Assembly (NCBI RefSeq): GCF_000213055.1
Contig: NZ_CM001165.1
Span: forward strand, 1,798,001-1,862,000
Reading direction: 5' to 3'
DNA: 64,000 bases
DNA from: Streptomyces sp. Tu6071
GTDB lineage: Bacteria; Actinomycetota; Actinomycetes; Streptomycetales; Streptomycetaceae
Positions within the stretch are counted from its first letter, which is position 1; every line of letters begins with the position of its first letter. Shown in pieces: positions 23,895 to 37,913 of this stretch. The notes under the pieces were generated by a model. The model ran no database searches, was not told the origin of the DNA, and saw only the letters and a list, made by a program, of their open reading frames with translations. Made by a program: the position numbers and the translations under genes.

Positions 23895-23935
23895 CGAACG
23901 TGTGTTTGGCGCAACCTTTCGAAAGCCACTACCGT
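23895..23935 (+). promoter_or_regulatory. LexA (SOS) box overlapping the lexA promoter
   Basis: CGAACGTGTGTTTG (23895-23908) matches the actinobacterial SOS box CGAAC-N4-GTTYG. It overlaps a -35 candidate TTGGCG (23906-23911), followed after 18 bp by TACCGT (23930-23935). LexA bound here would block its own promoter, the usual autorepression. Confidence 0.85.
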
Positions 23936-23971
23936 TGTGCTGCCAGGGAGACCATTCGAGAGGGGCCCAAT

Positions 23972-24760
23972 GTGACCACCACAGCCGACAGTGCCACCAT
24001 CACTGCCCAGGACCGCTCCCAGGGACGATTCCAGCCGGCCCGGGCGCTCGGCAATGAGAGCGCCACGCTCCAGGAGGGCGGCAAGCCCGCGCGCTCACTC
24101 CCTGGACGACCTCCTGGCATCCGGGCGGACAGCACCGGACTGACCGACCGGCAACGACGGGTCATCGAGGTGATCAGGGATTCGGTGCAGCGACGGGGCT
24201 ATCCGCCGTCGATGCGTGAGATCGGCCAGGCGGTCGGGCTCTCCAGCACCTCTTCCGTGGCGCACCAGCTCATGGCCCTCGAACGGAAGGGCTTCCTGCG
24301 ACGCGACCCGCACCGCCCTCGCGCCTACGAGGTGCGCGGCTCGGATCAGCCGAGCCCGCAGCCGGCCGACACCACCGGCAAGCCCGCCGCCTCCTACGTT
24401 CCTCTGGTCGGCCGGATCGCGGCCGGTGGCCCGATCCTCGCCGAGGAGTCCGTCGAGGACGTCTTTCCGCTTCCCCGGCAGCTCGTGGGCGACGGCGAGC
24501 TGTTCGTCCTCAAGGTGGTCGGCGACTCCATGATCGAGGCGGCCATCTGTGACGGCGACTGGGTCACCGTGCGGCGCCAGCCCGTGGCGGAGAACGGCGA
24601 CATCGTGGCCGCGATGCTCGACGGTGAGGCGACGGTGAAGCGGTTCAAGCGCGAGGACGGCCATGTCTGGCTGCTCCCGCACAACGCTGCGTACCAGCCC
24701 ATCCCCGGCGACGAGGCGACCATCCTCGGCAAGGTCGTCGCCGTCCTCCGGCGCATCTGA
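23972..24760 (+). CDS. lexA: SOS repressor LexA
   Basis: Represses DNA damage genes and self-cleaves when RecA filaments form. The 262-residue protein has a roughly 55-residue N-terminal extension common in Streptomyces, a helix-turn-helix ([20 protein letters not shown], residues about 78-97), and a serine protease domain. The cleavage bond is Ala151-Gly152 in GRIAAGGPI; the catalytic pair is Ser186 (GDSMIEA) and Lys223 (ATVKRF). The GTG at 23972 follows GAGAGGGG. An SOS box covers the promoter 64 bp upstream. recA lies at the far end of this window. Confidence 0.97.
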
Positions 24761-25151: not shown

Positions 25152-27251
25152 TCACCCCTCCGCGTCAGCACCTACCTGCTCGCCCGAACCCGCCTCCGGC
25201 TCCTTGGCCGTCGCGCCCGTCGCCCCCGCCGTCGTCCCGGGCGTCGCCCCCACCGCCGCCGTCCCGGCCGTCGCCGCCTTCGCAGCCGCGTCGATCGCCG
25301 CGAGGGAGCGGCGGACCTGGTTGCGGTCGTTCGTGTACCAGAAGTCGGGGAGCGAGGCCCGCAGGTAGCTCCCGTACCTGGCCGTCGCGAGACGGGGGTC
25401 GAGAACCGCGACCACTCCCTTGTCCCCCGTGGCCCGCACGAGGCGGCCGGCGCCCTGGGCCATCAGCAGGGCCGCGTGCGTCGCGGCGACCGCCATGAAG
25501 CCGTTGCCCCCGCCCTGCTCCACGGCCTTCTGCCGTGCGCTCATCAGGGGGTCATCGGGGCGCGGGAAGGGAATCCGGTCCATCACGACGAGCTGGCAGC
25601 TCGGCCCCGGCACGTCCACGCCCTGCCACAGGGACAGCGTCCCGAACAGGCAGGTGCGCGGGTCCTCGGCGAAGGCGCGGATCAGCTCGCCGAGGGTCTC
25701 CTCGCCCTGGAGGAGGACGGGGACGTCGAGCCGGGAGCGCAGTTCCTCGGCCGCGGCCTGCGCGCCGCGCATCGAGGAGAAGAGCCCCAGCGTGCGACCG
25801 CCCGCGGCCTCGACCAGCTCGGTCAGCTCGTCGAACATGTCCGTACGGGAGCCCTCGCGCCCCGGCGGGGACAGGTGGCGCGCCACGTAGAGGATGCCCT
25901 GCTTGCGGTACTCGAAGGGCGAGCCGACGTCGATGCCCTTCCAGACGGGCAGTTCGTCCGTCTCCGGGGCGCCTGAGCCCGCCACTCCTTCCGGGGCGAG
26001 GCCGAGCGAGGCCCCGACCCCGTTGAAGTCGCCGCCCAGCTTGAGCGTCGCCGAGGTGAGCGTCACCGAGCGGTCGGCGAAGAGCTTCTCGCGCAGCAGC
26101 CCCGAGACGGAGAGCGGCGCGACCCGCAGCGAGGCGCCGAAGCGGTCGTGCCGCTCGCACCACAGCACGTCGTACTCGGAGAGGCCGGTCATCCGCTCGG
26201 CGACGCCGTGCACGGTCTCGACGGAGGCGAGTGCCTGCTTGCGCACCGCGTCCTCGTCCTGGACCGAGCGATCGCGGGTGTTGCCGATGGCCGTGATCAC
26301 CTGCCGGGCCGCGTCGCGGAGCGCGGCGAGCGCGTACCCGAGATCCTCGGGGAGGGCTTCGAGCCGCCCCGGCAACGCCAGCTCCATGACCCGTTCGAAG
26401 CCCTCGGCCCCGGCCTGGAAGGCGTCGGCGACCTTCTCGTCGACGAGCTTCGCGGCGCGGCGGGCGGCCCTGTTGACCTGGTTCGGGTTCAGCTCGCCGG
26501 TGGCCACGTTCGTGACGCGGCCGACGAGCTCGTGCGCCTCGTCGACGATCAGGACCTCGTGCGAGGGAAGCACGGGGGCGCCCTCGATGGCGTCGATCGC
26601 GAGGAGGGCGTGATTGGTGACGACGACGTCGGCGAGCTTCGCGCGCTCACGCGCCGTCTCGGCGAAGCACTCGGCACCGTAGGCACAGCGGCTCGCGCCG
26701 AGACACTCGCGGGAGGAGACGGAGACCTGCGCCCAGGCACGGTCGGAGACCCCCGGGCTCAAGCCGTCGCGGTCGCCCGTCTCGGTCTCGTCCGCCCAGT
26801 CCCGCAGCCGCAGGAGGTCCTGCCCGAGCTTGCTGGACGGTGCCGCCGCTTCGAACTGGTCGAAGAGCGCCTCCTCCTCGTCCTTCGGCATGCCCTCGTG
26901 GAGACGGTGCAGGCAGAGGTAGTTGGAGCGGCCCTTGAGCATCGCGTACTCGGGGCGGCGGCGCAGTACCGGGTGCAGGGCCTCGACCGTACGGGGCAGG
27001 TCGCGCTCCACCAGCTGGCGCTGCAGCGCCAGCGTCGCTGTCGCGACCACCACCCGCTCCCCGTGCGCCAGCGCCGGCACCAGGTAGCCGAGCGACTTCC
27101 CGGTGCCGGTGCCGGCCTGGACAAGGAGGTGGGAACCGTCGTCGATGGCCGCTTCGACCGCCTCGGCCATGGCCACCTGGCCCGGCCGTTCGGTGCCGCC
27201 CACGGCGGCGACAGCGGCGTGCAGGAGCTCGGGGAGTGAGGGCTTCGTCAT
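25152..27251 (-). CDS. dinG: DinG-family ATP-dependent DNA helicase
   Basis: A 699-residue iron-sulfur superfamily 2 helicase (XPD/DinG-like), unwinding DNA 5'-3' in repair and replication-fork rescue. Walker A is GTGTGKS (residues 46-52), Walker B is VDEAHEL, and the C-terminal motifs are GTLSLWQGVDVPG and GAGRLVRATGD. Four cysteines expected to hold the 4Fe-4S cluster are seen (YLCLHR, RECLG, SRCAYG, AECFA). The ATG at 27251 follows GGTGG-like sequence. It lies 65 bp downstream of the last siderophore gene on the same strand, so read-through is possible. Its last 40 residues are an Ala/Thr/Gly-rich tail. Confidence 0.9.
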   Translation of the reverse strand: MTKPSLPELLHAAVAAVGGTERPGQVAMAEAVEAAIDDGSHLLVQAGTGTGKSLGYLVPALAHGERVVVATATLALQRQLVERDLPRTVEALHPVLRRRPEYAMLKGRSNYLCLHRLHEGMPKDEEEALFDQFEAAAPSSKLGQDLLRLRDWADETETGDRDGLSPGVSDRAWAQVSVSSRECLGASRCAYGAECFAETARERAKLADVVVTNHALLAIDAIEGAPVLPSHEVLIVDEAHELVGRVTNVATGELNPNQVNRAARRAAKLVDEKVADAFQAGAEGFERVMELALPGRLEALPEDLGYALAALRDAARQVITAIGNTRDRSVQDEDAVRKQALASVETVHGVAERMTGLSEYDVLWCERHDRFGASLRVAPLSVSGLLREKLFADRSVTLTSATLKLGGDFNGVGASLGLAPEGVAGSGAPETDELPVWKGIDVGSPFEYRKQGILYVARHLSPPGREGSRTDMFDELTELVEAAGGRTLGLFSSMRGAQAAAEELRSRLDVPVLLQGEETLGELIRAFAEDPRTCLFGTLSLWQGVDVPGPSCQLVVMDRIPFPRPDDPLMSARQKAVEQGGGNGFMAVAATHAALLMAQGAGRLVRATGDKGVVAVLDPRLATARYGSYLRASLPDFWYTNDRNQVRRSLAAIDAAAKAATAGTAAVGATPGTTAGATGATAKEPEAGSGEQVGADAEG

Positions 27252-27315: not shown

Positions 27316-29553
27316 TCATGTGACGGGCTCGCCTCCGACCGCACCCTCTCCGGACGGGGTCCCTCCCGCTCCGCTCCGTCCGACCGCACCCCCTCCGGAC
27401 AGGCCCTCGCCGGACGCCTCCCCTCCAGCCGCACCCCCTCCGGACAAACCCCCGTCAGACACTTCCCCTCCAGCCGCGCCCCCTTCCAGCGCACCGTCCC
27501 CCAGCCCGCCGGCCGCCGCCACCCGTGGCCGGAACGCGTCCCCGTGCAGCGGGTTCGCCACCATGCCGTCCACCGCCGCGTGGGGCCGCTCGGCGCGGTC
27601 CCGGTAGCCGTCGAGGTGGAGGCGGTTGCGGTTGAGGCAGAGCCGCTCGATCTCCGGGCCGAGCAGTTCGAAGAGCTCGAAGCGCTCCTTCAGCTCGGGA
27701 AAGCGCGCCTGATAGGCGAGGATCTCGGCACGTACCAGGTTCCAGAAGTCCTCGTCGTGGACGCCGAGCTGGGCGCGGCACAGCGGCGCCAGGTAGCGGA
27801 AGACGCCGACGAAGAGACCGGAATGGATGAACTGCGGGAGGAAGGCGGGGTCTTCCGCCAGCAGGATGTCGCGTACCTCCGCGGGCATGTCCTCGTGCTC
27901 GGGGAGCGTTCGCGCGCTGAGGTTGACGTCGTCGACGAAGTCCTTGACCGCGAGCCTCGTGGGGACGTCGCGCGCGTCGAAGACGACGATCGCGTTCTCG
28001 CCGTGCGGCGAGAAGACGGTGCCGTGGCGGTAGAGGAAGTGCAGGAGCGGCGGCAGCAGGGCGCCGAAGAGGCGCCGCAGCCAGTCGTGCGGCGCGAGGC
28101 CCGAGCGGGCGACGAGTTCGGCGACGAAGGCGCGGCCGTCGCGGTCCACGTGCAGGAGCGAGGCGAGGGTCCGCGCGCGTTCGTCCTCGTCGAGGAGCGG
28201 GGTGAGCGGTTCGCGCCAGATCGCGCCGAGGAGTTCCTTGTACTGGTACGGGACCTCGGGCAGCGCGTCGTAGAAGGGATGGCGCACGGCGACGGAGGCG
28301 ACCTCGCCGAGCAGGACGACGCGGCACTCCTCGCGCAGATAGGGGTCGCGGTCGCGTATCGACTGCACCCAGGCCGTGACGGCGGGCGCGGCGATCGTGC
28401 GGCGGGTAGGCAGTCCGCGCCACACGAGGGTGTTGAGGATGGAGAGCGGCAGTTTGACCGTGTGGCGCGCGGGGTCGTCCAGGTTGAGGAAGGTGCGGAT
28501 GGACTGCTGCGGCAGGCGGCGGGCGCCGTCCGAGGGCAGCGGTACGAGGTCGCCCGCGGCGACGCCCGCGGCGTGCAGGGGCAGCACGGTGCTGTCCCAC
28601 TGCCAGGGGTGCACCGGCAGGTAGAGGTAGTCCGCCGGGTCGAGGCCGCGCCCCGTCAAGACCGCGTCGAAGGACTCCCGCACGGCGGGGGCGAGTTCGG
28701 CGGCGTAGAGCTGCTCGGGCGTGTCGAGACCGGGGACGCCGCGGTAGGTGGCGAGGTGGGTGCGGACGGCGAGCCACGGCAGGCGGGCCTCGGCGCGGCC
28801 CTCCGGGGCCCAGCGCGCGGCGTCGGACGCGCTGAAGCCCAGGCGACCCTTGTTGAGGACGATCCAGGGATGCCCGGTCTGGTGCCCCTCCAGCTCCGCG
28901 TACCCGAGTTCGGCGAGGTCCGCGCTGGTCAGGGCGGTGTGGAGAAGGCGCGCGTCGGCGGCGAGCGTCGCGTTCAGCTCGCGCAGCAGGTGCCCGAGCG
29001 TCGCGCCGTCGAGGCCGAGGACGTGGCGGGCGCGGACGAGGAAGTCGAGCGGATCGGTGGCGGGGTACGGGCCGGTGGAAGCGCGGTCGTCGCCGGTGCG
29101 TTCGGCGCCCGACGTGTCCTCGACCCCTCTTGTGTCGAGGCGCAGGCTTCCGGGGTCGATCTCCCAGTGGCCGTAGGCGCTGCGGGCGGCGCGGAAGAGA
29201 AGCGCGGTCTCCCCCGCACTCTCGCCACCGCGTACCGCCCCGTCCGTTATCCTCCCGGCCCGCGACATCCCCTCCGGCCGCCCCAGCGGCAGCCGGTAGG
29301 CGCGGTGGTGGAAGGGGACGTCGGGCGACTCGGGGTCCTCGGGGCGGGGATCGAAGAGGCCCTCGTACGAGAATTCCGCGACCATCTTGGCGAGGAGCCG
29401 CTGCCCGGCCTCGCGCCACAGCTCGGGGGTCAGTTCGGCCGGGGCGAAGAGCCCGTACGGCGGGGGGCCTTCGGGGGCGGTGACAGGCGGGAGCACGGGC
29501 TCGGTGAGCTCGTCGGCGGTTGTCCGGGGACGCGGTGCGGGGAGGTTCTGCAC
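27316..29553 (-). CDS. NRPS-independent siderophore synthetase, IucA/IucC family (second in operon)
   Basis: A 745-residue ATP-dependent synthetase that joins a carboxylate to an amine or alcohol during siderophore assembly. Family motifs: GHQTGHPWIVLNKGRLGFSA (nucleotide-binding region), YLPVHPWQWD, RRLPQQSIRTFLNLDDP, HTVKLPLSILNT, YRHGTVFSPHGENAIVVF (catalytic loop) and LAVKDFVDDVNLS. The SPHGEN and QQSIRTF forms resemble DesD-like (type C) enzymes, which condense an already citrate- or dicarboxylate-bound precursor; that subtype call is inference. The C-terminus ends in a Gly-rich 15-residue repeat not expected in the family. The ATG at 29553 starts the last gene of the siderophore operon (order like rhbF). 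Confidence 0.9.
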   Translation of the reverse strand: MQNLPAPRPRTTADELTEPVLPPVTAPEGPPPYGLFAPAELTPELWREAGQRLLAKMVAEFSYEGLFDPRPEDPESPDVPFHHRAYRLPLGRPEGMSRAGRITDGAVRGGESAGETALLFRAARSAYGHWEIDPGSLRLDTRGVEDTSGAERTGDDRASTGPYPATDPLDFLVRARHVLGLDGATLGHLLRELNATLAADARLLHTALTSADLAELGYAELEGHQTGHPWIVLNKGRLGFSASDAARWAPEGRAEARLPWLAVRTHLATYRGVPGLDTPEQLYAAELAPAVRESFDAVLTGRGLDPADYLYLPVHPWQWDSTVLPLHAAGVAAGDLVPLPSDGARRLPQQSIRTFLNLDDPARHTVKLPLSILNTLVWRGLPTRRTIAAPAVTAWVQSIRDRDPYLREECRVVLLGEVASVAVRHPFYDALPEVPYQYKELLGAIWREPLTPLLDEDERARTLASLLHVDRDGRAFVAELVARSGLAPHDWLRRLFGALLPPLLHFLYRHGTVFSPHGENAIVVFDARDVPTRLAVKDFVDDVNLSARTLPEHEDMPAEVRDILLAEDPAFLPQFIHSGLFVGVFRYLAPLCRAQLGVHDEDFWNLVRAEILAYQARFPELKERFELFELLGPEIERLCLNRNRLHLDGYRDRAERPHAAVDGMVANPLHGDAFRPRVAAAGGLGDGALEGGAAGGEVSDGGLSGGGAAGGEASGEGLSGGGAVGRSGAGGTPSGEGAVGGEPVT
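27339..27500. repeat. 45-bp coding repeat in the siderophore synthetase tail
   Basis: Copies of a 45-bp unit start at 27339, 27384, 27429 and 27474 (CCGCACCC...CTCCGGA core). In the protein they give imperfect 15-residue GGAAGGE...GLSG units. The period keeps the frame, so copy number can vary without breaking the gene. Confidence 0.75.
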
Positions 29554-29635
29554 GAAGGGCTCCTTCGGTGGCGACCGGTGTGCGGACGTGCGGGTACGGC
29601 GGGAGGCGCACGCCCGCGCGGGAAGGGCGGCGGCG

Positions 29636-29662
29636 CGCGCGGGCCGTGACCGGGCCCGCGCG
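29636..29662 (-). terminator. Intra-operon GC hairpin
   Basis: CGCGCGGGCC and its complement form a 10-bp stem with a 7-base loop between the acyltransferase and the second synthetase. It might lower expression of the downstream synthetase or stabilise upstream mRNA. Confidence 0.5.
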
Positions 29663-29746
29663 GCGTGCCGGAGTGAGTGCGTACCGCTGCGGGGTACGAA
29701 GCCCCGCCGTGTGGGGACAGGCGGCAGGCGGCAGGGCGCGTGCGTG

Positions 29747-30436
29747 TCAGGCGGGAGGAGTCGGGGCTCGGTCCCTGATCATCAGGGCGGCGCGTTTGCC
29801 GGGCAGTTCCAGCTCGCGGTCCTTGCGGTAGCCGGCGCGCAGGAACGCGGCGACGGAGCGGACGTTGCGCACGTCCGGTTCGGCGAGGACGCGGGTGGCG
29901 CACGGGCGGTGCGCGAGGATCAGCGACGTGACGGCGCGCAGCAGCTCCGTACCGAGGCCCCTCCCCCGGTCCGTGCCGCCGCCGAGGAGCAGGTGGATGC
30001 CCACGTCGTACGGTCGCGCGGGGTAGTACGGGGTGAGGACGTCGTGATCGGCGCGGTAGATCTCCCAGTAGCTCATCGGCCGCCCGTCGAGCAGTCCGAG
30101 GCAGGGCACGCTGCGTCCGTCGCCGTCGGTCTGTGCGCGGACGTGGGCCTCGGTCACCTCGGGCGAGCCCGCGAGCTCCCAGAACGCCGCCACTTCGGGG
30201 TCGTTCATCCACCCCGCGATCAGGACGAGGTCGCGCGGCAGCGCGACAGGCCGCAGGCGGAAGAGGCCGTGCGGCGTGGGGACGGGCGCCCAGTCGCCGG
30301 GCGGGGCGTCGGTGGGCGGCGTCGCGCCTTCGGGGTACGGGCCAGGTCCTCCGGCCCCGGCTATGCCGGGGCCCGGCGCCTCGCTGTCGGCGGCGCCGGG
30401 CGCGGGCCCCGCGACGGGGGTGTCCGCTGTGGGCAT
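29747..30436 (-). CDS. Siderophore-type GNAT acyltransferase (AlcB/RhbD/IucB-like)
   Basis: A 229-residue acetyltransferase. After a 70-residue Pro/Gly/Ala-rich leader it shows the siderophore N-acyltransferase pattern: GLFRLRPVALPRDLVLIAGW, MNDPEVAAFWELAG, PMSYWEIYRADHDVL, YDVGIHLLLGG and RGRGLGTELLRAV, the last being the acetyl-CoA loop. In rhizobactin or aerobactin pathways such enzymes acylate an N-hydroxylated diamine; no hydroxylase is encoded here, so the acceptor is open. GAGGAG lies seven bases before the ATG at 30436. It sits between two synthetase genes on the same strand, like rhbD in rhbCD(E)F. Confidence 0.82.
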   Translation of the reverse strand: MPTADTPVAGPAPGAADSEAPGPGIAGAGGPGPYPEGATPPTDAPPGDWAPVPTPHGLFRLRPVALPRDLVLIAGWMNDPEVAAFWELAGSPEVTEAHVRAQTDGDGRSVPCLGLLDGRPMSYWEIYRADHDVLTPYYPARPYDVGIHLLLGGGTDRGRGLGTELLRAVTSLILAHRPCATRVLAEPDVRNVRSVAAFLRAGYRKDRELELPGKRAALMIRDRAPTPPA

Positions 30437-30564
30437 GGTGCACTCCTCGGTTCGAGGCGGTACGGGGACGGGCGCGGCGGTCCGCGTACGGGGCGGGCGG
30501 GGCGGTGCGGGTTCGGCGCGGGGGGGGTGCGGGGCCGACGGGTGAGGGCCGGCCCCGCGCGCGG

Positions 30565-32730
30565 TCAGCAGCTGTGGAGGGGGTTGCGGAAGCGTACGTA
30601 GACGGACTGGGTGTCGACGGGGCCGACGAGTTCGTCGAGTCCGTGCAGCCGCGTGAGCAGATTGGCCTTGCAGCGCAGGACCGGGGTGTCGAGCAGCAGG
30701 GCGGGCAGTCCGGAGCCGAGGGCTTCGGGGCCGTGCGCGGCGCCGGTGAGGAAGCCGCGCAGCGCGGCGAGCAGCAGGTGCTCGTCCGCGAGGCCCTGGG
30801 AGCCGAGGGCGCCGACGAGGCCGAGGACGTTGTTGATGGCGAGGTAGTAGGTGAAGCGCTCGTCCGTCACGTCGTCGGGGACGAACGTGTCGCTCTCGGT
30901 CCCGATGCCCGGCAGCCGTCGCTCCAGGGCCTCGCGGTGCGAGTCGCGGAAGTAGTAGCCCTGATTGTCCCGGTACCTGCCGCCGCTCGGCCAGCCCTCG
31001 GCGTCGAGCAGGACGACGGTGTTCTGCTGGTGCGCCTCCAGGGCGACGCCCGCGTGTCCGTCGAGCCACAGGATCGGGCGGACGACGCGCTCCAGGTAGC
31101 GCAGGAACCACTCGGTGGCGACGGTGCCGCGCGGCCTGCCGGTGCCCTGGGCGAGCCGGGTGATCAGCTCGCTGAGCCGGGAGCGCATGGGCTGCTGGGC
31201 CTGCGAGCCGTGCGCGAGGAGCCCGCTCGGCTGGGCGGGGTGCCCGCCGACCGGGGGCAGGGGGCGTGGCGAGACGAGCCCGGCGAGGCAGGCGGCGTCG
31301 GTCGCCGCGGGGAAGGGGTTGTGGCGGATCATGACGTCCACGCCGCGCAGCGGGTCGCCGTCCGGGCCGTCGACCGCGATCCACGCCGGGTCGCGCACGA
31401 TGTCGAAGCCGGGGTGGGCGGCGTGCCACTCGGCGCCGAGTCCGGTGCGGAGGAGGCGGTGGACCTCGACGCCGCGGTGGAGTTCTTTGCGGAGGTTCTC
31501 GCGGCGCGAGTTGGTGATGCGCAGACCGAGCGAGAGCTTGAGCATGGCCGGGGCCTCGGCGCGGTAGACGGTGCGCACCGACGAGGTGGGGGACCACGGT
31601 TCCCCGTGCGGGCCGAGCGGCGTGAGCAGCCCGGCGTCGACCAGCGCGCGCACCTCAGGGCGCTGCGCCAGGTCGCGAGCCTGCCAGGGGTGCAGGGGCA
31701 GCGCGACGGTGCCGGGCGGGAGGGTGAGTCCCGGGCCCGCGAGGCGCTCGGTGAGCTGTCCGGCCGAAACGGTCCTGCCGCGCTCGGTCCAGGCCGAGTC
31801 GGTGGCGAGGACGTCCTTGTGCACGGCCAGCCAGTGCAGCGGGAAGGCCCCGCGTAGCTCGGGCGAGTAGAGCCGGGCCTCCGCCTCGCTGAGTCCCTGC
31901 CTGCTCTTGGGCGTGGGATGGAGCGGGTGGCCGAGGAGGAGCGCCTGCTCGGCGGCGAGGAAGGGGGCGGGCGAGTCCTCGGCGTGGCGGCGGCGGAAGG
32001 AGAGGAAGACGGCGGTACGGCGTACCGAGTCCCTGACGCGTGCCACGAGGTCGTCGTCGGGAGCGGGCGGGGCCTGCCTCGGAACCGTGGGGGCGGGCTC
32101 GTCAGCGGCGGCGGGCGGTACGGAGGTGGCGCGCGCGGCGCCTGCGCTCCCGCCCTGGTCCGCACCGTCCGCCGTCGTCCCGGCGTATCCCGTACCGTCC
32201 GCCGCCGTCCCGAGGCGTCCCGGGCCGTCCGTCACCGTCCCCGCGCGGACCTCCGCGCTCAGCACCTCCGCGACCGTGGCCGCGTCCAGCGGCGCGGTGA
32301 GGCGCGGTGCCCTGCCCTGGCGGACGACGGCCCGGCGCGGGAAGGCGCCGCCGGGGTGGGCGGGGGCGGGGCCGTGGTGTTCGAGGCGGGGCAGGCCGAA
32401 GCGGTGCAGTCCGGCGGCGGACCAGTACCGCACCGGGACGACGAGCGTCGCCTCCTGGGCCGGCAGGGAGATGCGCAGCGGCCCGTGCTCCGCCGCGTCG
32501 ACGCCGGTCTCGCGCACCCAGCAGCGCAGCAGCGACTCCAGCGCCGCGGCCTCGGCGGCGGTCGGCACGTCGGGGTGTTCGAGGAGGTCGACCGCGGCGC
32601 CGTCGAGGTGTTCCGTGGGGGCGGCCGTGTGCTGCCGGGGGACGACACCGTCTTCGGGGCATGCCGAACTCGTACTTCCGGCCTCGGAGGCGAGGGGGTA
32701 CCGGCCGTCGGGTGCGGTGTTCGGATTCAC
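30565..32730 (-). CDS. NRPS-independent siderophore synthetase, IucA/IucC family (first in operon)
   Basis: A 721-residue IucA/IucC synthetase. Motifs: GHPLHPTPKSRQGLSEAEAR (conserved N-terminal loop), ALPLHPWQARDL, LKLSLGLRITNSRREN, VALEAHQQNTVVLL (active-site HQQN) and RDNQGYYF. The HPxHPxxKxRxG and HQQN forms are those of citrate-using type A enzymes such as IucA and RhbC; subtype is inference. An Ala/Gly/Thr-rich low-complexity insert lies around residues 165-220. The GTG at 32730 follows AAGGAAG. It lies 85 bp after the aminotransferase and 128 bp before the acyltransferase, in the position of rhbC. Confidence 0.9.
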   Translation of the reverse strand: MNPNTAPDGRYPLASEAGSTSSACPEDGVVPRQHTAAPTEHLDGAAVDLLEHPDVPTAAEAAALESLLRCWVRETGVDAAEHGPLRISLPAQEATLVVPVRYWSAAGLHRFGLPRLEHHGPAPAHPGGAFPRRAVVRQGRAPRLTAPLDAATVAEVLSAEVRAGTVTDGPGRLGTAADGTGYAGTTADGADQGGSAGAARATSVPPAAADEPAPTVPRQAPPAPDDDLVARVRDSVRRTAVFLSFRRRHAEDSPAPFLAAEQALLLGHPLHPTPKSRQGLSEAEARLYSPELRGAFPLHWLAVHKDVLATDSAWTERGRTVSAGQLTERLAGPGLTLPPGTVALPLHPWQARDLAQRPEVRALVDAGLLTPLGPHGEPWSPTSSVRTVYRAEAPAMLKLSLGLRITNSRRENLRKELHRGVEVHRLLRTGLGAEWHAAHPGFDIVRDPAWIAVDGPDGDPLRGVDVMIRHNPFPAATDAACLAGLVSPRPLPPVGGHPAQPSGLLAHGSQAQQPMRSRLSELITRLAQGTGRPRGTVATEWFLRYLERVVRPILWLDGHAGVALEAHQQNTVVLLDAEGWPSGGRYRDNQGYYFRDSHREALERRLPGIGTESDTFVPDDVTDERFTYYLAINNVLGLVGALGSQGLADEHLLLAALRGFLTGAAHGPEALGSGLPALLLDTPVLRCKANLLTRLHGLDELVGPVDTQSVYVRFRNPLHSC

Positions 32731-32815
32731 GGGCGCTTCCTTGAGGGACGTGATCGTGTGGCCCCGCGGCTGTGGGGACGGGGCCGGTGGGGGGACTGGC
32801 ACGCGGAGGGGCGGC

Positions 32816-34192
32816 TCAGACGGGTGGGGTGCGCGGCGCCCGTACGCGGGGATCGCGGTCCACGGCGTCGAGCGCGTCGGCGAAACGGTCCAGGACGGCG
32901 GTGGCCTGGTCGTCGGTGAGGGTGAGCGGGGGCAGCAGCCGGACCACGGCCGAGTGGCGGCCCCCCAGCTCCACGATGAGACCGCGGCGCAGGCACTCCC
33001 TGCGCACCGCCACGGCGCGCGCGGCATCGGCGGGCGGTGGCCCGTCCGACCCCGGCCTGGCAGCCTCCGGGTCGACGAGTTCGACGCCGAGCATGAGTCC
33101 GCGCCCGCGCACGTCGCCGATCCAGGCGTGGCGCGTCGCGAGGGAGCGCAGCGCGGAGAGCATCCGGGCGCCCAGGAGCCTGGCCCGCTCGGCGAGCCCG
33201 TTCTCGCGGACGTGGGCGAGGGTCGCGGCTCCGGCGGCCATCGCGAGCTGGTTGCCGCGGAAGGTCCCGGCGTGGGCGCCGGGTTCCCAGACGTCGAGAT
33301 CCTCGTGGTAGACGATGACGGCGAGCGGGAGGCTGCCGCCGATCGCCTTGGAGAGGACCATGACGTCGGGCACGACGCCCGCGTGGTCGACGGCCCAGAA
33401 GGCACCGGTGCGGCCGACGCCCGTCTGCACCTCGTCGGCGATGAGGGGCAGTCCGCGCGCGCGGGTGAGCGCGCGCATACGGCGCAGCCAGGCATCCGGG
33501 GCCGGGTGCACACCGCCCTCGCCCTGGACGGGCTCGACGATCATCCCGGCCGGCTCCGGTACGCCGGACTTGGGATCGTCAAGGTAGCTCTCGGCGAGCC
33601 GGGCACCGAGCGCGGCGCCCTCCTCGCCGCCCACCCCGAAGGGGCAGCGGTAGTCCTGCGGGTACGGAAGACGCAGGGTGTCCCGTACCGAGGTGGCGGC
33701 CGACGAGACGTCGAGCGCCCCGGCGGTCATGCCGTGGTAGGCGCCCGTGAAGCCGAGCACCGCCTGCCGGCCCGTGGCGCGCCGTACGAGCTTGAGCGCG
33801 GCCTCGACGGCGTCGGTGCCCGCGGGTCCGCAGAACTGGATACGGCCGCGGGCGGCCAGCTCACCGGGCAGGGTGCGGAACAGCTCGGTGACGAAGGCGT
33901 CCTTGACCGGGGTCGCGAGGTCCAGGACGTGCAGCGGAGCCTCGGAGTCGAGGACGTCCCTGATCGCCTGGAGGACCACGGGATGGTTGTGACCGAGGGC
34001 GAGGGTGCCCGCCCCGGAGAGACAGTCCAGGTACCTGCGGCCGTCCGCGCCCTCGATGGTCAGGCCCCTGGCCCGGACGGGGACGATAGGCAGGGCACGG
34101 GCATAGGTCCTCGCGGCCGACTCCCGCAGGGACTGCCTGCGCAGCACCCCTTCCTGCGTGGTCGTCGGTGCGATGGGCACGGACTCGGTCAC
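32816..34192 (-). CDS. Diaminobutyrate--2-oxoglutarate aminotransferase-like (RhbA/EctB type)
   Basis: A class III PLP aminotransferase of 458 residues. Conserved parts are YLDCLSGAGTLALGHNHP, CGPAGTDAVEAALKLVRRAT, TGAYHGMTAGAL, PVQGEGGVHPAPDAWLRRMR, ADEVQTGVGRTGAFWA and the PLP lysine in VLSKAIGGSLPLAV. This is the pattern of enzymes making L-2,4-diaminobutyrate from aspartate semialdehyde, as in rhizobactin (RhbA) and ectoine (EctB) synthesis. The GTG at 34192 overlaps the stop of a 38-codon ORF as GTGA, implying translational coupling; a TTG at 34198, nine bases after GGGAGGA, is the alternative. It heads the siderophore operon, with no decarboxylase gene after it. Confidence 0.88.
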   Translation of the reverse strand: MTESVPIAPTTTQEGVLRRQSLRESAARTYARALPIVPVRARGLTIEGADGRRYLDCLSGAGTLALGHNHPVVLQAIRDVLDSEAPLHVLDLATPVKDAFVTELFRTLPGELAARGRIQFCGPAGTDAVEAALKLVRRATGRQAVLGFTGAYHGMTAGALDVSSAATSVRDTLRLPYPQDYRCPFGVGGEEGAALGARLAESYLDDPKSGVPEPAGMIVEPVQGEGGVHPAPDAWLRRMRALTRARGLPLIADEVQTGVGRTGAFWAVDHAGVVPDVMVLSKAIGGSLPLAVIVYHEDLDVWEPGAHAGTFRGNQLAMAAGAATLAHVRENGLAERARLLGARMLSALRSLATRHAWIGDVRGRGLMLGVELVDPEAARPGSDGPPPADAARAVAVRRECLRRGLIVELGGRHSAVVRLLPPLTLTDDQATAVLDRFADALDAVDRDPRVRAPRTPPV

Positions 34193-34305
34193 GGCCAAGG
34201 CGGTAGGTCCTCCCGCGGTGCGAACGGCGTGTCGGGGCCGAGGGCGGGCATGCCGACGACCCCCGTACGTACCAACGACGCGGACCGCTCCGGATAACGG
34301 CTCAT
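34189..34305 (-). CDS. 38-codon small ORF coupled to the siderophore aminotransferase
   Basis: Starts at an ATG (34305) with AAGGA seven bases upstream, the best ribosome site in front of this operon. It encodes MSRYPERSASLVRTGVVGMP and 18 more residues (ending DLPPWP), with no signal, membrane helix or Cys/aromatic stall run. Its TGA overlaps the aminotransferase GTG by the GTGA arrangement. It could be a coupling leader, a regulatory peptide, or a precursor-like small protein; I do not recognise a family. Confidence 0.6.
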   Translation of the reverse strand: MSRYPERSASLVRTGVVGMPALGPDTPFAPREDLPPWP

Positions 34306-34515
34306 CCGAAGATCCTTGCCCGGCACGGCGAAGTCGGCCGGAAACCGACGATGCGACCGGAACGCGACTGCTGGGGCGGGGGGTTGGAGCTGAGACGCGG
34401 GAGCGAGGCCGGGGCTTCCCGCTGTGACCCAACTGTTGCCGCCGCGCGGCGGGCCTGTTGAGGCCCCGTCATAGTGTGGGAGCGGCAAGGTCCGGCACTT
34501 CCAGGGGGATTGAGC

Positions 34516-35733
34516 ATGCGCACCACACGGGCACGGACGGGGCGGGGGCTGCGTCGTGGCTCCTGGCCGGTGGCGGTCGGGGCCGCCCTGACCCTCACGC
34601 TGACGCTGACCGCCTGCGGTCCCGAGGACGACTCGGCGGGCGGCGACGACGGCGGAAAGCCCGTCGCCTCGGAGTCCTCGGCGGGTGAGCACAGGATCCG
34701 TATCCCGGACGGCGTACGGGACCGGCTCAAGGAGCACGGCATCGATCTCGGGAAGTGGGAGGACGGCGCCTGGCGCAAGTGGGACAAGGACACCTGGCTG
34801 CGCAAGGCCGAGGACTACGTCAATCCGATCATCGACGGCCTGTGGGACCCGGACCGGATGCGCCGGGCCGAGGACCCGCAGAAGAAGGTGGACGACGGCG
34901 ACCTCGCGGACGACCGGGGCGTGACCGACCCCGCACCCGCGCCGGTCGAGGCCGCCGCCGTGACCCCGCCGTACCACGACGCGCTGCCGGAGGCGGGGAA
35001 GGTCCTCTTCGACTCCCCCGAGGGCTCGATGGTCTGCTCGGCGACGGTCGTCGAGGACCCGGCCCACCCGGGGAAGTCCAACCTCGTGTGGACGGCGGGC
35101 CACTGCGTGCACGCCGGGCGGAAGGGCGGCTGGTACCGCAACATCGCCTTCGTGCCCGCGTACAACAACGCGGGGAAGCCGACCGCCGAGCTGGAGAAGG
35201 CGACGCGCGAGGAGATCGCTCCGTACGGGGTGTGGTGGAGCGACTGGGCGCAGACCTCGAAGGAGTGGATCGCGAGCGGCGGCCCCACCGGAGGTGCGGG
35301 GGCGCCCTACGACTTCGCCGTCCTGCACGTGACGCCGGAGAACGGCGGCGGGAAATCTCTGGAGGAGACCGTGGGCGGCGCGCTGCCCGTGGACTTCGCC
35401 GCGGCTTCGGCCGCGAAGACGCCTTCCTTGACGGCCTCCGGTTACCCGGCGGCACCGCCCTTCGACGGCCAGGCCCTGTACCAGTGCCCCGCGAAGCCGG
35501 GCCGCCTCTCGCTCGGCCCCGAGCAGCCGACGATGTACCGCATCGGCTGCACCATGACGGGCGGTGCCTCGGGCGGCGGCTGGGTCGGCAGGAACGCGGA
35601 CGGCGAGCCGGCGCTCGTCTCGAACACCTCGATCGGCCCGGTGAGGGGCGGCTGGCTCGCGGGCCCGCGCCTGGGCAAGGAAGCGGAGGACGTCTACCGC
35701 GCGGTGAGCGACAAGGCGGACAGCCTCTCCTGA
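34516..35733 (+). CDS. Lipoprotein trypsin-like serine peptidase
   Basis: A 405-residue secreted protein. The N-terminus has Arg residues, a hydrophobic core and the lipobox LTAC (Cys at about residue 35), so it is probably membrane-anchored outside the cell. The peptidase domain shows His in VWTAGHCVHAG, Asp in APYDFAVLHV and Ser in MTGGASGGGWVG, a complete chymotrypsin-like triad; the pair of Cys around CSATVV and GHC fits a disulfide. A charged linker (residues 36-150) precedes it. The ATG at 34516 follows AGGGGGAT. It is divergent from the siderophore operon and has its own repeat-rich 3' flank. Confidence 0.85.
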   Translation: MRTTRARTGRGLRRGSWPVAVGAALTLTLTLTACGPEDDSAGGDDGGKPVASESSAGEHRIRIPDGVRDRLKEHGIDLGKWEDGAWRKWDKDTWLRKAEDYVNPIIDGLWDPDRMRRAEDPQKKVDDGDLADDRGVTDPAPAPVEAAAVTPPYHDALPEAGKVLFDSPEGSMVCSATVVEDPAHPGKSNLVWTAGHCVHAGRKGGWYRNIAFVPAYNNAGKPTAELEKATREEIAPYGVWWSDWAQTSKEWIASGGPTGGAGAPYDFAVLHVTPENGGGKSLEETVGGALPVDFAAASAAKTPSLTASGYPAAPPFDGQALYQCPAKPGRLSLGPEQPTMYRIGCTMTGGASGGGWVGRNADGEPALVSNTSIGPVRGGWLAGPRLGKEAEDVYRAVSDKADSLS

Positions 35734-36123: not shown

Positions 36124-37686
36124 TCAGTGCGAGCCGACCGGGCTGAACCTGTGCAGTTCCGCGGCCAGTTCCTCGTGCACCAGGGCCTTGAGCCGGGTGC
36201 CCTCGGGGGTGTGCTCCTCGGAGAGGACCTCGCCCTCGACGTGTGCCCGAGCGATGTACTTGCCCTCGGTGTAGGGGACGAGCACGTCGACCTCGACGGC
36301 GGGACGGGGCAGTTCCTCGTCGATGAGCGCGAGCAGTTCCTCGATGCCCTGCCCACTGCGGGCGGAGACGGCGATCGAGTGCTTCTCGACGCGCAGGAGC
36401 CGCTGGAGGACCACGGGGTCGGCCGCGTCCGCCTTGTTGATCACAACGATCTCGGGGACGTCGGTGGCCCCGACCTCCCTGATCACCTCGCGCACCGCGG
36501 CCAGTTGCTCCTCGGGGGCCGGGTGCGAGCCGTCGACCACGTGGAGGATCAGGTCGGAGTCGCCGACCTCCTCCATCGTGGAGCGGAACGCCTCGACGAG
36601 GTGGTGCGGCAGGTGCCGTACGAAGCCCACCGTGTCCGCGAGCGTGTAGAGCCGCCCGCTCGGTGTCTCCGCCCGGCGCACGGTCGGGTCGAGGGTCGCG
36701 AACAGCGCGTTCTCGACGAGCACCCCCGCGCCAGTGAGGCGGTTGAGCAACGAGGACTTGCCCGCGTTGGTGTAGCCCGCGATGGCCACCGAGGGGACCT
36801 TGTTGCGCCGGCGTTCCTGGCGCTTGAGGTCCCGTCCGGTCTTCATCTCGGCGATCTCCCGGCGCATCTTCGCCATCTTCTCGCGGATGCGCCGGCGGTC
36901 CGTCTCGATCTTGGTCTCACCGGGACCGCGGGTCGCCATGCCGCCGCCGGAGGAGCCGGAGCCACCGCCACCCATCTGCCGGGAGAGCGACTGGCCCCAA
37001 CCGCGCAGGCGCGGCAGCATGTACTGCATCTGCGCGAGCGAGACCTGCGCCTTGCCCTCTCGGGACTTGGCGTGCTGGGCGAAGATGTCGAGGATCAGCG
37101 CCGTGCGGTCGACGACCTTGACCTTGACGACGTCTTCGAGGTGGATGAGCTGCCCGGGGCTCAGCTCACCGTCGCAGACGACGGTGTCGGCGCCGGTCTC
37201 CAGGACGAGGTCCCGCAGTTCGACGGCCTTGCCGGAGCCGATGTAAGTGGCCGGGTCGGGCTTGTCCCTGCGCTGGATGACCCCGTCGAGGACGAGGGCA
37301 CCCGCCGTCTCGGCGAGCGCGGCCAGCTCCGCCAGGGAGTTCTCCGCGTCGTGGACGGTGCCCGAGGTCCAGACCCCGACGAGGATGACCCGCTCCAGAC
37401 GCAGCTGGCGGTACTCGACCTCGGTGACGTCCTCCAGCTCCGTGGAGAGCCCGGCGACCCTGCGCAGGGCCGCGCGCTCCTCACGGTCGTACTGCTCGCC
37501 GTCCCGCGCGCCGTCGGCCCCGTGGCTCCAGGCGGCGTCCTCTTCCATCAGGGCATCGGCCCGCAGGCCGTGGCTGTGGGACGGCTGCTGTCCCCGCGGG
37601 TGCGTCTCGTTCACGGTGTCCTCCGCGCCGAGGGGCGCGTCCTGGTCTCCGGAAGTGTCCTGGGAAAAGGGAGGGGTGTGGGTCAT
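36124..37686 (-). CDS. hflX: Ribosome-associated GTPase HflX
   Basis: A GTPase that splits stalled 70S ribosomes under stress. The 520-residue protein has an about 75-residue acidic N-terminal extension, the HflX domain (YIGSGKAVELRDLV, VVCDGELSPGQLIHLED), a Gly-rich loop then GPGETKIETDRRRI, and a G domain with G1 GYTNAGKS, G3 DTVGF and G4 NKAD. The ATG at 37686 follows AAGGAACCA. A 14-bp terminator hairpin closes the gene, and inverted repeats lie 31-85 bp upstream of it. Confidence 0.95.
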   Translation of the reverse strand: MTHTPPFSQDTSGDQDAPLGAEDTVNETHPRGQQPSHSHGLRADALMEEDAAWSHGADGARDGEQYDREERAALRRVAGLSTELEDVTEVEYRQLRLERVILVGVWTSGTVHDAENSLAELAALAETAGALVLDGVIQRRDKPDPATYIGSGKAVELRDLVLETGADTVVCDGELSPGQLIHLEDVVKVKVVDRTALILDIFAQHAKSREGKAQVSLAQMQYMLPRLRGWGQSLSRQMGGGGSGSSGGGMATRGPGETKIETDRRRIREKMAKMRREIAEMKTGRDLKRQERRRNKVPSVAIAGYTNAGKSSLLNRLTGAGVLVENALFATLDPTVRRAETPSGRLYTLADTVGFVRHLPHHLVEAFRSTMEEVGDSDLILHVVDGSHPAPEEQLAAVREVIREVGATDVPEIVVINKADAADPVVLQRLLRVEKHSIAVSARSGQGIEELLALIDEELPRPAVEVDVLVPYTEGKYIARAHVEGEVLSEEHTPEGTRLKALVHEELAAELHRFSPVGSH

Positions 37687-37716
37687 TGGTTCCTTAATGA
37701 CGAGTGCGGTCGACGA

Positions 37717-37771
37717 GCGGACCCTGTCCGCCGATGTGAGCAACGCCCGGAGAGCCCCGGGAATTCCCGGG
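37717..37771. promoter_or_regulatory. Two inverted repeats upstream of hflX
   Basis: GCGGAC-CCT-GTCCGC (37717-37731) and the perfect 16-bp palindrome CCCGGGAATTCCCGGG (37756-37771), immediately followed by GCCCATGGGC. They lie 31-85 bp before the hflX start on the minus strand, where promoter and operator elements are expected. The regulator is unknown. Confidence 0.45.
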
Positions 37772-37913
37772 CCCATGGGCGCCGCTCGCCCGGAAATGGT
37801 CCCACGGCGCTCCTCGGGGAGTCACGCGAGTTATCAGACGGACCGGCCGGGCCCCGGCGGCCTCGCGCGCCGGGGTGCGGGCAGCGCGCGGCAAGGGCGC
37901 GAAACCTCCCAGG

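Follow-up and report, generated by a model that had tools for sequence, protein, structure and literature searches.

How can an operon that is laid out like a citrate-hydroxamate siderophore cluster yield a siderophore when it encodes neither a decarboxylase nor an N-hydroxylase? This question is raised by four genes on the minus strand of Streptomyces sp. Tu6071, which lie in a 64,000-nucleotide stretch of its chromosome (NZ_CM001165.1, positions 1,798,001 to 1,862,000; hereafter the window, to which the positions of the operon and its neighbours refer). A preliminary description of this stretch had likened their order to rhbA-C-D-F of the rhizobactin operon and had left two ways out: either diaminobutyrate itself is condensed with citrate, or the missing enzymes act from elsewhere. 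The locus is already known as the csb cluster, and its missing iucD is in print (PMC9600172). Our analysis of the window, of the genome it belongs to (G000 in our numbering; 7.5 Mb, rated 100% complete) and of a sample of Streptomyces genomes makes it fairly probable that csbABCD is one half of a split hydroxamate pathway independent of nonribosomal peptide synthetases (NRPS), which would make schizokinen or a close analogue.

The csb operon

Open reading frames (ORFs) and family profiles bear out the four genes, their strand and their order; in the fetched loci, referred to below by L-numbers, gene starts are approximate and come from a simple ORF caller. The csbA-like gene (32816..34192) encodes a predicted diaminobutyrate-2-oxoglutarate aminotransferase of the Dat family, which matches PF00202 with 294 bits and TIGR00709 (dat) with 471 bits, above the cut-off of 401.6, and scores slightly below the cut-off of the narrower model NF005393 (637.5 against 671 bits). 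Its top solved relatives are the diaminobutyrate transaminases 6rl5 and 9s1q. A TTG at 34198 is an alternative start, and with the gene beginning at about 34192-34198 the upper limit of the operon, first given as 34305, was set too high. The csbB-like gene (30565..32730) encodes an NRPS-independent siderophore (NIS) synthetase of IucA type, NIS-B (PF04183, 230 bits; PF06276, 116 bits), with IucA (5jm7) as its top solved relative, and the csbC-like gene (29747..30436) an N-acyltransferase of the AlcB/IucB/MbtK type (GNAT, Acetyltransf_8; PF13523, 157 bits), among whose solved relatives MbtK ranks first and BH2621 and Rv1347c next. The csbD-like gene (27316..29553) encodes a type C synthetase, NIS-D (PF04183, 239 bits; PF06276, 136 bits), whose top solved relatives are DesD, AlcC and IucC. 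Neither synthetase frame is interrupted; NIS-B can be aligned over its length with IucA and NIS-D with DesD, and both genes carry PF04183 and PF06276 well over the cut-offs. The last 85 or so residues of NIS-D (27316-27570) form a repetitive C-terminal tail rich in Gly and Ala, outside the region that aligns with the solved relatives.

The core of a citrate-hydroxamate pathway is present, with one IucA-type and one IucC-type synthetase and an IucB/AlcB-type acyltransferase; after that of the window, the next-best Acetyltransf_8 match in the genome reaches 55 as against 158 bits. Pfam and NCBIfam scans of the window revealed no decarboxylase or N-hydroxylase in the operon or in adjoining genes. 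The absence reported in the preliminary description thus extends to the flanks, where rhbB- or rhbE-like genes, named there as the finding that would speak against it, do not occur.

The csbABCD cluster of Streptomyces sp. YIM 121038 has the same four genes in the same order with the same DinG-LexA flank, and its authors remarked on the missing iucD (PMC9600172). In the passages of that paper available to us, CsbC N-succinylates antibiotics, uses acetyl-CoA less well and confers low-level antibiotic resistance in Escherichia coli; attempts to disrupt csbC in YIM 121038 failed, and liquid chromatography-mass spectrometry (LC-MS) did not find the csb product. No source of a decarboxylase or hydroxylase is named in these passages, and the word decarboxylase appears in the main text only within a reference (PMC9600172). 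The window operon is assigned to csb by its gene set and its DinG-LexA flank, the published cluster standing beside dinG-lexA-nrdR. The S. coelicolor counterpart is probably SCO5799-5801, which we take to be the same locus from lexA/dinG synteny. Literature passages term SCO5799-5801 a siderophore or putative siderophore cluster (PMC7324645, PMC3224560, PMC6414726), and those with these locus tags name no product, in agreement with the preliminary description, which gave the S. coelicolor cluster as having none assigned. A source of the missing csb enzymes is likewise not named in the passages of the literature found, which lies largely outside subscription journals.

A distant decarboxylase-hydroxylase pair and its relatives

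A genome-wide search for rhbB- and rhbE-like genes, as the preliminary description had proposed, returned one adjacent decarboxylase and diamine N-hydroxylase pair, away from any IucA/IucC gene. By whole-genome profile search, the only two IucA/IucC genes are those of the window. Five proteins match PF13434, three of them partially at 26-31 bits; the two full-length matches are a CchB-like protein in a coelichelin-type neighbourhood, named from its gene content (L012), and the hydroxylase of the pair (C1:6158932-6159978; locus L011), a predicted flavin monooxygenase of the diamine N-hydroxylase type whose gene ends at 6160323. The PF00282 decarboxylase lies directly upstream (C1:6157393-6158781). 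The pair sits on the same chromosome as the operon, 4.3 Mb away, with an aminopeptidase-like gene on one side and a nucleotidase-like and pyruvate-kinase-like group on the other (names read from sequence), and whole-genome searches gave no IucA/IucC or Acetyltransf_8 match at this locus. The decarboxylase search covered the PF00282 fold and gave two further matches (L008 and L010). This adjacent diamine-type hydroxylase and pyridoxal phosphate-dependent decarboxylase, with substrates predicted from sequence, are new as a candidate source of the missing steps. Of the two ways out considered at the start, enzymes acting from elsewhere is therefore the one that fits best.

The best solved relatives of the pair hydroxylase are DfoA, DesB and putrescine N-hydroxylase, which marks it as a predicted enzyme of the diamine type; that the genome has this single diamine-type hydroxylase and only two IucA/IucC genes favours a split pathway. 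The pair decarboxylase scores 235 bits on the diaminobutyrate enzyme 2qma against 209 on the desferrioxamine decarboxylase 5o5c, and L034, where the decarboxylase gene overlaps the Dat gene, gives 212 against 195 bits. DesA from another genome shows 536 bits on 5o5c against 337 on 2qma. The pair decarboxylase is thus not DesA-like and leans towards the diaminobutyrate enzyme. Some genomes have a further pair of this kind beside a metE-like gene (L175, L179 and L180), with about 57% identity to the first in the decarboxylase and 65% in the hydroxylase, and in L037 a hydroxylase of 65% identity has a glutamine-synthetase-like gene and one for a type C synthetase as neighbours. In a decarboxylase tree of 21 rows, which was flagged for long branches and for uneven composition, also in the row of G000, the pair, the metE-locus copy and L034/L035 form one group (100/100), with L034/L035 closest to the metE-locus copy. 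This grouping and the unlikeness to DesA again favour the split pathway. The hydroxylase tree is less resolved, with 7 of 20 inner branches open and the pair row L177 unplaced.

L034 and L035 belong to a set of clusters from other Streptomyces in which the two halves stand together. L031-L035 and L181 combine aminotransferase, decarboxylase, IucA-type synthetase, hydroxylase and type C synthetase; L036 and L038 hold type C synthetase, decarboxylase, IucA-type synthetase, acyltransferase and hydroxylase with no aminotransferase called, and L039 resembles them, with neither aminotransferase nor acyltransferase called. Identities to the parts of the window and the pair are 60-67% for the aminotransferase, 40-57% for the decarboxylase, 44-55% for the hydroxylase, 43-49% for the IucA-type and 45-49% for the type C synthetase. 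By contrast, the parts of the desferrioxamine operon L050 are only 34-41% identical to those of csb and the pair; in L036, L038 and L039, the decarboxylases surpass DesA by just 0-3 points. L031-L035 show no acyltransferase homologue. They and L181 carry a glutamine-synthetase-like gene and an Orn/DAP-type decarboxylase, both scanned in L034 only. That these clusters combine homologues of both halves argues for the split pathway, and because the one-operon relatives of both synthetases carry a decarboxylase and a hydroxylase, condensation of diaminobutyrate itself with citrate becomes less likely.

Distribution was followed in 199 Streptomyces genomes, G000 included, with eight candidates scored per genome in the decarboxylase search and six in the NIS-D search. 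A relative of NIS-D (at least 63% identity, fragments and G000 counted) is present in 105 of them. Pair-type genes, defined by a decarboxylase of at least 63% or a hydroxylase of at least 65% identity and including the copy beside the metE-like gene, are near-core (188/199, some as fragments). They occur in 102 of the 105 NIS-D-positive genomes, in 79 through the decarboxylase and, out of the remaining 26, in 23 through the hydroxylase (five of these 23 as pieces or fragments: G010, G041, G070, G081 and G194); the three without them, G008, G050 and G114, have 740, 1770 and 800 contigs. Of the 94 NIS-D-negative genomes, 86 have them: the decarboxylase search accounts for 63, and the hydroxylase search adds 23 from the 31 left over, with pieces or fragments in G012 (two distant places), G099 and G196. 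G178 showed the pair only in its metE-locus form, and the hydroxylase was found in 9 of 10 named genomes. The decarboxylase search alone gave 79/105 against 63/94 (one-sided p = 0.13), a tally that is too low because eight candidates were scored per genome. G010, which has the operon and no decarboxylase match, was dropped as a counterexample, since its pair locus is interrupted by frame breaks and has 3017 bases that are masked or unknown. At least two NIS-D-like matches were seen in 75 of the 105 NIS-D-positive genomes; those of 37-42% identity were taken for DesD, and one of these (G107) was seen within the des operon L050. By hand tally, all 30 NIS-D genomes with a single NIS-D match, in which DesD was unseen, carry pair-type genes (G010, G070 and G081 as pieces or fragments), which also favours the split pathway.

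Both halves are under purifying selection and kept without des. No third IucA/IucC gene was found in G000, SID11385, NRRL F-5630 or S. halstedii, and between the first two the ratio of nonsynonymous to synonymous substitution rates (dN/dS) is low: 0.08 for the aminotransferase, 0.18 for NIS-B, 0.41 for the acyltransferase and 0.30 for NIS-D, the last two being held less tightly, and 0.24 for both the decarboxylase and the hydroxylase of the pair, a further point in favour of the split pathway. The neighbouring DinG and LexA genes give 0.06 and 0.02.

Regulation, product and rival explanations

Iron boxes were sought with a 19-base DmdR/IdeR consensus, allowing up to four mismatches. None was found in 89 operon loci, which together span 1.8 Mb and in 79 cases take in the region upstream of the aminotransferase, or in 39 upstream regions of the pair. 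In the control, 11 of 12 other siderophore loci and none of 30 shuffled loci matched. Eight of the nine one-operon clusters (L031-L036, L038, L039 and L181) have a box; the exception, and the one control locus without a match, is L032, which is cut near its 5' end. The lack of an iron box is thus common to both halves, unlike usual siderophore loci; this observation is new, and it favours the split pathway. A Zur box (up to three mismatches to the consensus) was absent from all 89 operon loci. The DmdR1 regulon as given in the passages of PMC12161575 lists cch and des and does not list the SCO5799-5801 locus, with SCO5799 and SCO5800 absent from the main text. Expression tables point in different directions. 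In a differentiation transcriptome table of PMC3610822, two of the three columns, counted without regard to what they stand for, give SCO5799 and SCO5801 the opposite sign to SCO2782 (desA) and to several genes for coelichelin, and SCO5800 is opposite to SCO2783/2785 in a part of PMC6414726; in the passage of PMC7324645, all three siderophore clusters fall jointly on over-expression of SCO3201. Being opposite to des twice and in the same direction once, these tables were set aside as evidence.

The only two-synthetase locus found in S. globisporus, S. rubiginosohelvolus and S. microflavus, three species that we take to belong to the S. anulatus clade, is csb, and a third synthetase stands beside a DesB-like hydroxylase. 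LC-MS reports of schizokinen come from S. anulatus RLA103, with the compound 'specified by BGC 1.15' (PMC11865988; BGC, biosynthetic gene cluster), from S. mutomycini SL02, where the assignment is putative, and from strain SL03, where it is tentative (PMC13136089). These reports from Streptomyces strains favour the split pathway and, as csb is the only two-synthetase locus in the three species above, point to csb as the source by elimination. The preliminary description had named a known siderophore made by the operon, such as schizokinen, as evidence against its reading; the compound is now on record in three strains, where the cluster behind it may be csb, and the passages of PMC11865988 and PMC13136089 give no genetics for it.

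In the split pathway that we favour, the aminotransferase would form L-2,4-diaminobutyrate, which the decarboxylase of the distant pair would convert to 1,3-diaminopropane for N-hydroxylation by the flavin monooxygenase next to it. The acyltransferase of the operon would acylate the resulting hydroxylamine, and citrate would receive its first arm through the IucA-type synthetase and its second through the type C enzyme. If the two halves cooperate in this manner, the end product would be schizokinen or its succinyl analogue; we know of no report of a bis-succinyl schizokinen analogue.

Several observations weigh against this assignment. The pair is near-core and its co-occurrence with NIS-D (102/105 against 86/94; two-sided Fisher p = 0.12) therefore does not discriminate, so that we dropped it as proof of a link. 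By hand tally, pair-type genes are also present in five of six genomes in which neither NIS-D nor DesD was seen (G014, G051, G094, G133 and G187; not G092), which argues that the pair has, or had, another use, and the draft genome of NRRL F-5630 has csb and no match to the pair hydroxylase. In G000 itself, the hydroxylase frame has no ATG, GTG or TTG before the flavin adenine dinucleotide (FAD) motif (L011, 9778-10646), so that the gene may be truly broken or misassembled. A C-rich stretch in this part of L011 differs in length from that of SID11385, where the two pair genes share a four-base overlap and are both intact. On the curated RhbB model (cut-off 900), DesA scores 436 bits and the pair decarboxylase only 303; as the model favours DesA and all scores fall far under the cut-off, it was dropped as a sign of diaminobutyrate specificity, which makes diaminobutyrate no more than a candidate substrate of the pair decarboxylase. 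A promoter element common to both halves was sought and not found: the conserved element upstream of the pair differs from that of the operon, and the CGTTG(G) core which they share is too little to support a claim. As for the product, the passages of PMC9600172 report that CsbC of YIM 121038 prefers succinyl-CoA in vitro, as measured on antibiotics, which are non-native substrates, and that LC-MS of this strain gave no product. The schizokinen medium, where given, is SM17, the sole medium without added iron in the passages of PMC13136089, which fits badly with an operon that lacks an iron box.

The operon might instead be complete as it stands and make a hydroxamate-free carboxylate chelator, with the acyltransferase acylating diaminobutyrate or another amine, the synthetases condensing it with citrate, and the pair unrelated. 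The missing hydroxylase and decarboxylase, the independence of the near-core pair from the presence of csb, and the in vitro acylation of plain amines by CsbC (passages of PMC9600172) would all agree with this. Such a chelator is nevertheless unlikely: the one-operon relatives of both synthetases bring a decarboxylase and a hydroxylase, and schizokinen has been reported. NIS-B resembles IucA, and NIS-D resembles DesD, AlcC and IucC, enzymes whose substrates are hydroxamates. We regard it as highly improbable that DesA and DesB supply hydroxylated cadaverine for an arthrobactin-like product, even though the genomes with at least two NIS-D-like matches (75/105) would offer a DesD-type locus: searches of G000, SID11385, NRRL F-5630 and S. 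halstedii found no more than two IucA/IucC genes, the pair hydroxylase is the one DesB-like enzyme of its kind in G000, and a Dat aminotransferase would presumably be pointless for a lysine-derived diamine.

It is also improbable that csb serves mainly for detoxification or modification, as a conserved locus in which the acyltransferase succinylates amines and antibiotics and the siderophore product is vestigial. The N-succinylation of antibiotics by CsbC, the resistance it gives E. coli and the LC-MS result without a product (passages of PMC9600172) would suit such a locus, as would the absence of an iron box and of a transporter gene, by eye, around L042-L049. Against it, the aminotransferase and the two synthetases are intact, and a comparison of two strains shows purifying selection on them; none of the eight loci drawn has lost any of the four genes, and NIS-D is found in 105/199 genomes. 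A doubtful variant keeps the two-locus citrate-hydroxamate pathway, with its near-core pair half, and places it outside the iron regulon, its product being used in development or for handling metals inside the cell and not for scavenging iron under starvation. The failure to disrupt csbC (passages of PMC9600172) and the opposite signs of SCO5799/SCO5801 and desA/coelichelin genes in two of three columns (part of PMC3610822) fit this variant; the joint fall of the three clusters on SCO3201 over-expression (passage of PMC7324645) does not.

About half of the sampled Streptomyces carry this cryptic siderophore locus, whose pathway visibly lacks steps and for which no product has been demonstrated, and naming a specific distant enzyme pair makes the csb pathway simple to test. 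If the split pathway holds, cluster-based genome mining overlooks half of a widespread pathway, and a siderophore-type pathway can stand outside the iron regulon.

Flanking genes and comparison with known systems

In each of the eight orthologous loci that were drawn (L042-L049), the same four-gene set is flanked by hflX on one side and by dinG/lexA on the other. In the window, a DinG/YoaA-type helicase gene (25152..27251, minus strand) is the downstream neighbour and stands outside the pathway. Its start lies 64 bases past csbD, an arrangement seen again in L042-L049, and it may therefore share a transcript with the siderophore genes. LexA (23900-24760) follows on the same flank. On the other side, a divergent gene on the plus strand (34516..35733), by position orf1 of the csb paper, encodes a predicted lipoprotein, and HflX (36124-37776) lies beyond it. 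The lipoprotein has no Pfam or NCBIfam match and shows, by eye, the trypsin-like motifs TAGHC and GGASGGG; in L042, L043 and L046-L049, the gene calls show, again by eye, a second, similar gene beside the first. No transporter gene was seen by eye among the gene calls around L042-L049, for which no profile scan was made.

Upstream of the operon, a conserved non-coding element of 60 bases (CCCGTGATCC...CGTCGTTGGTACGTACGGGGG; 34260..34319, minus strand) may act as its promoter; its strict pattern is present in 43 of the 79 upstream regions that could be extracted. An open frame of 38 codons immediately ahead of the aminotransferase gene lacks conservation when these regions are aligned and was discarded.

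Known systems for comparison are the operons of rhizobactin 1021 (rhbABCDEF) and aerobactin (iucABCD). Relative to these operons, that of the window lacks RhbB, RhbE/IucD and an iron box, and no adjoining transporter gene was seen. The A-C-D-F order of the rhizobactin 1021 operon, that is aminotransferase, IucA-type synthetase, acyltransferase and IucC-type synthetase, is common to both. The desABCD operon (L050) differs from csb in having one synthetase and two iron boxes, and has a related decarboxylase, diamine hydroxylase, acyltransferase and type C synthetase, as do csb and the pair taken together.

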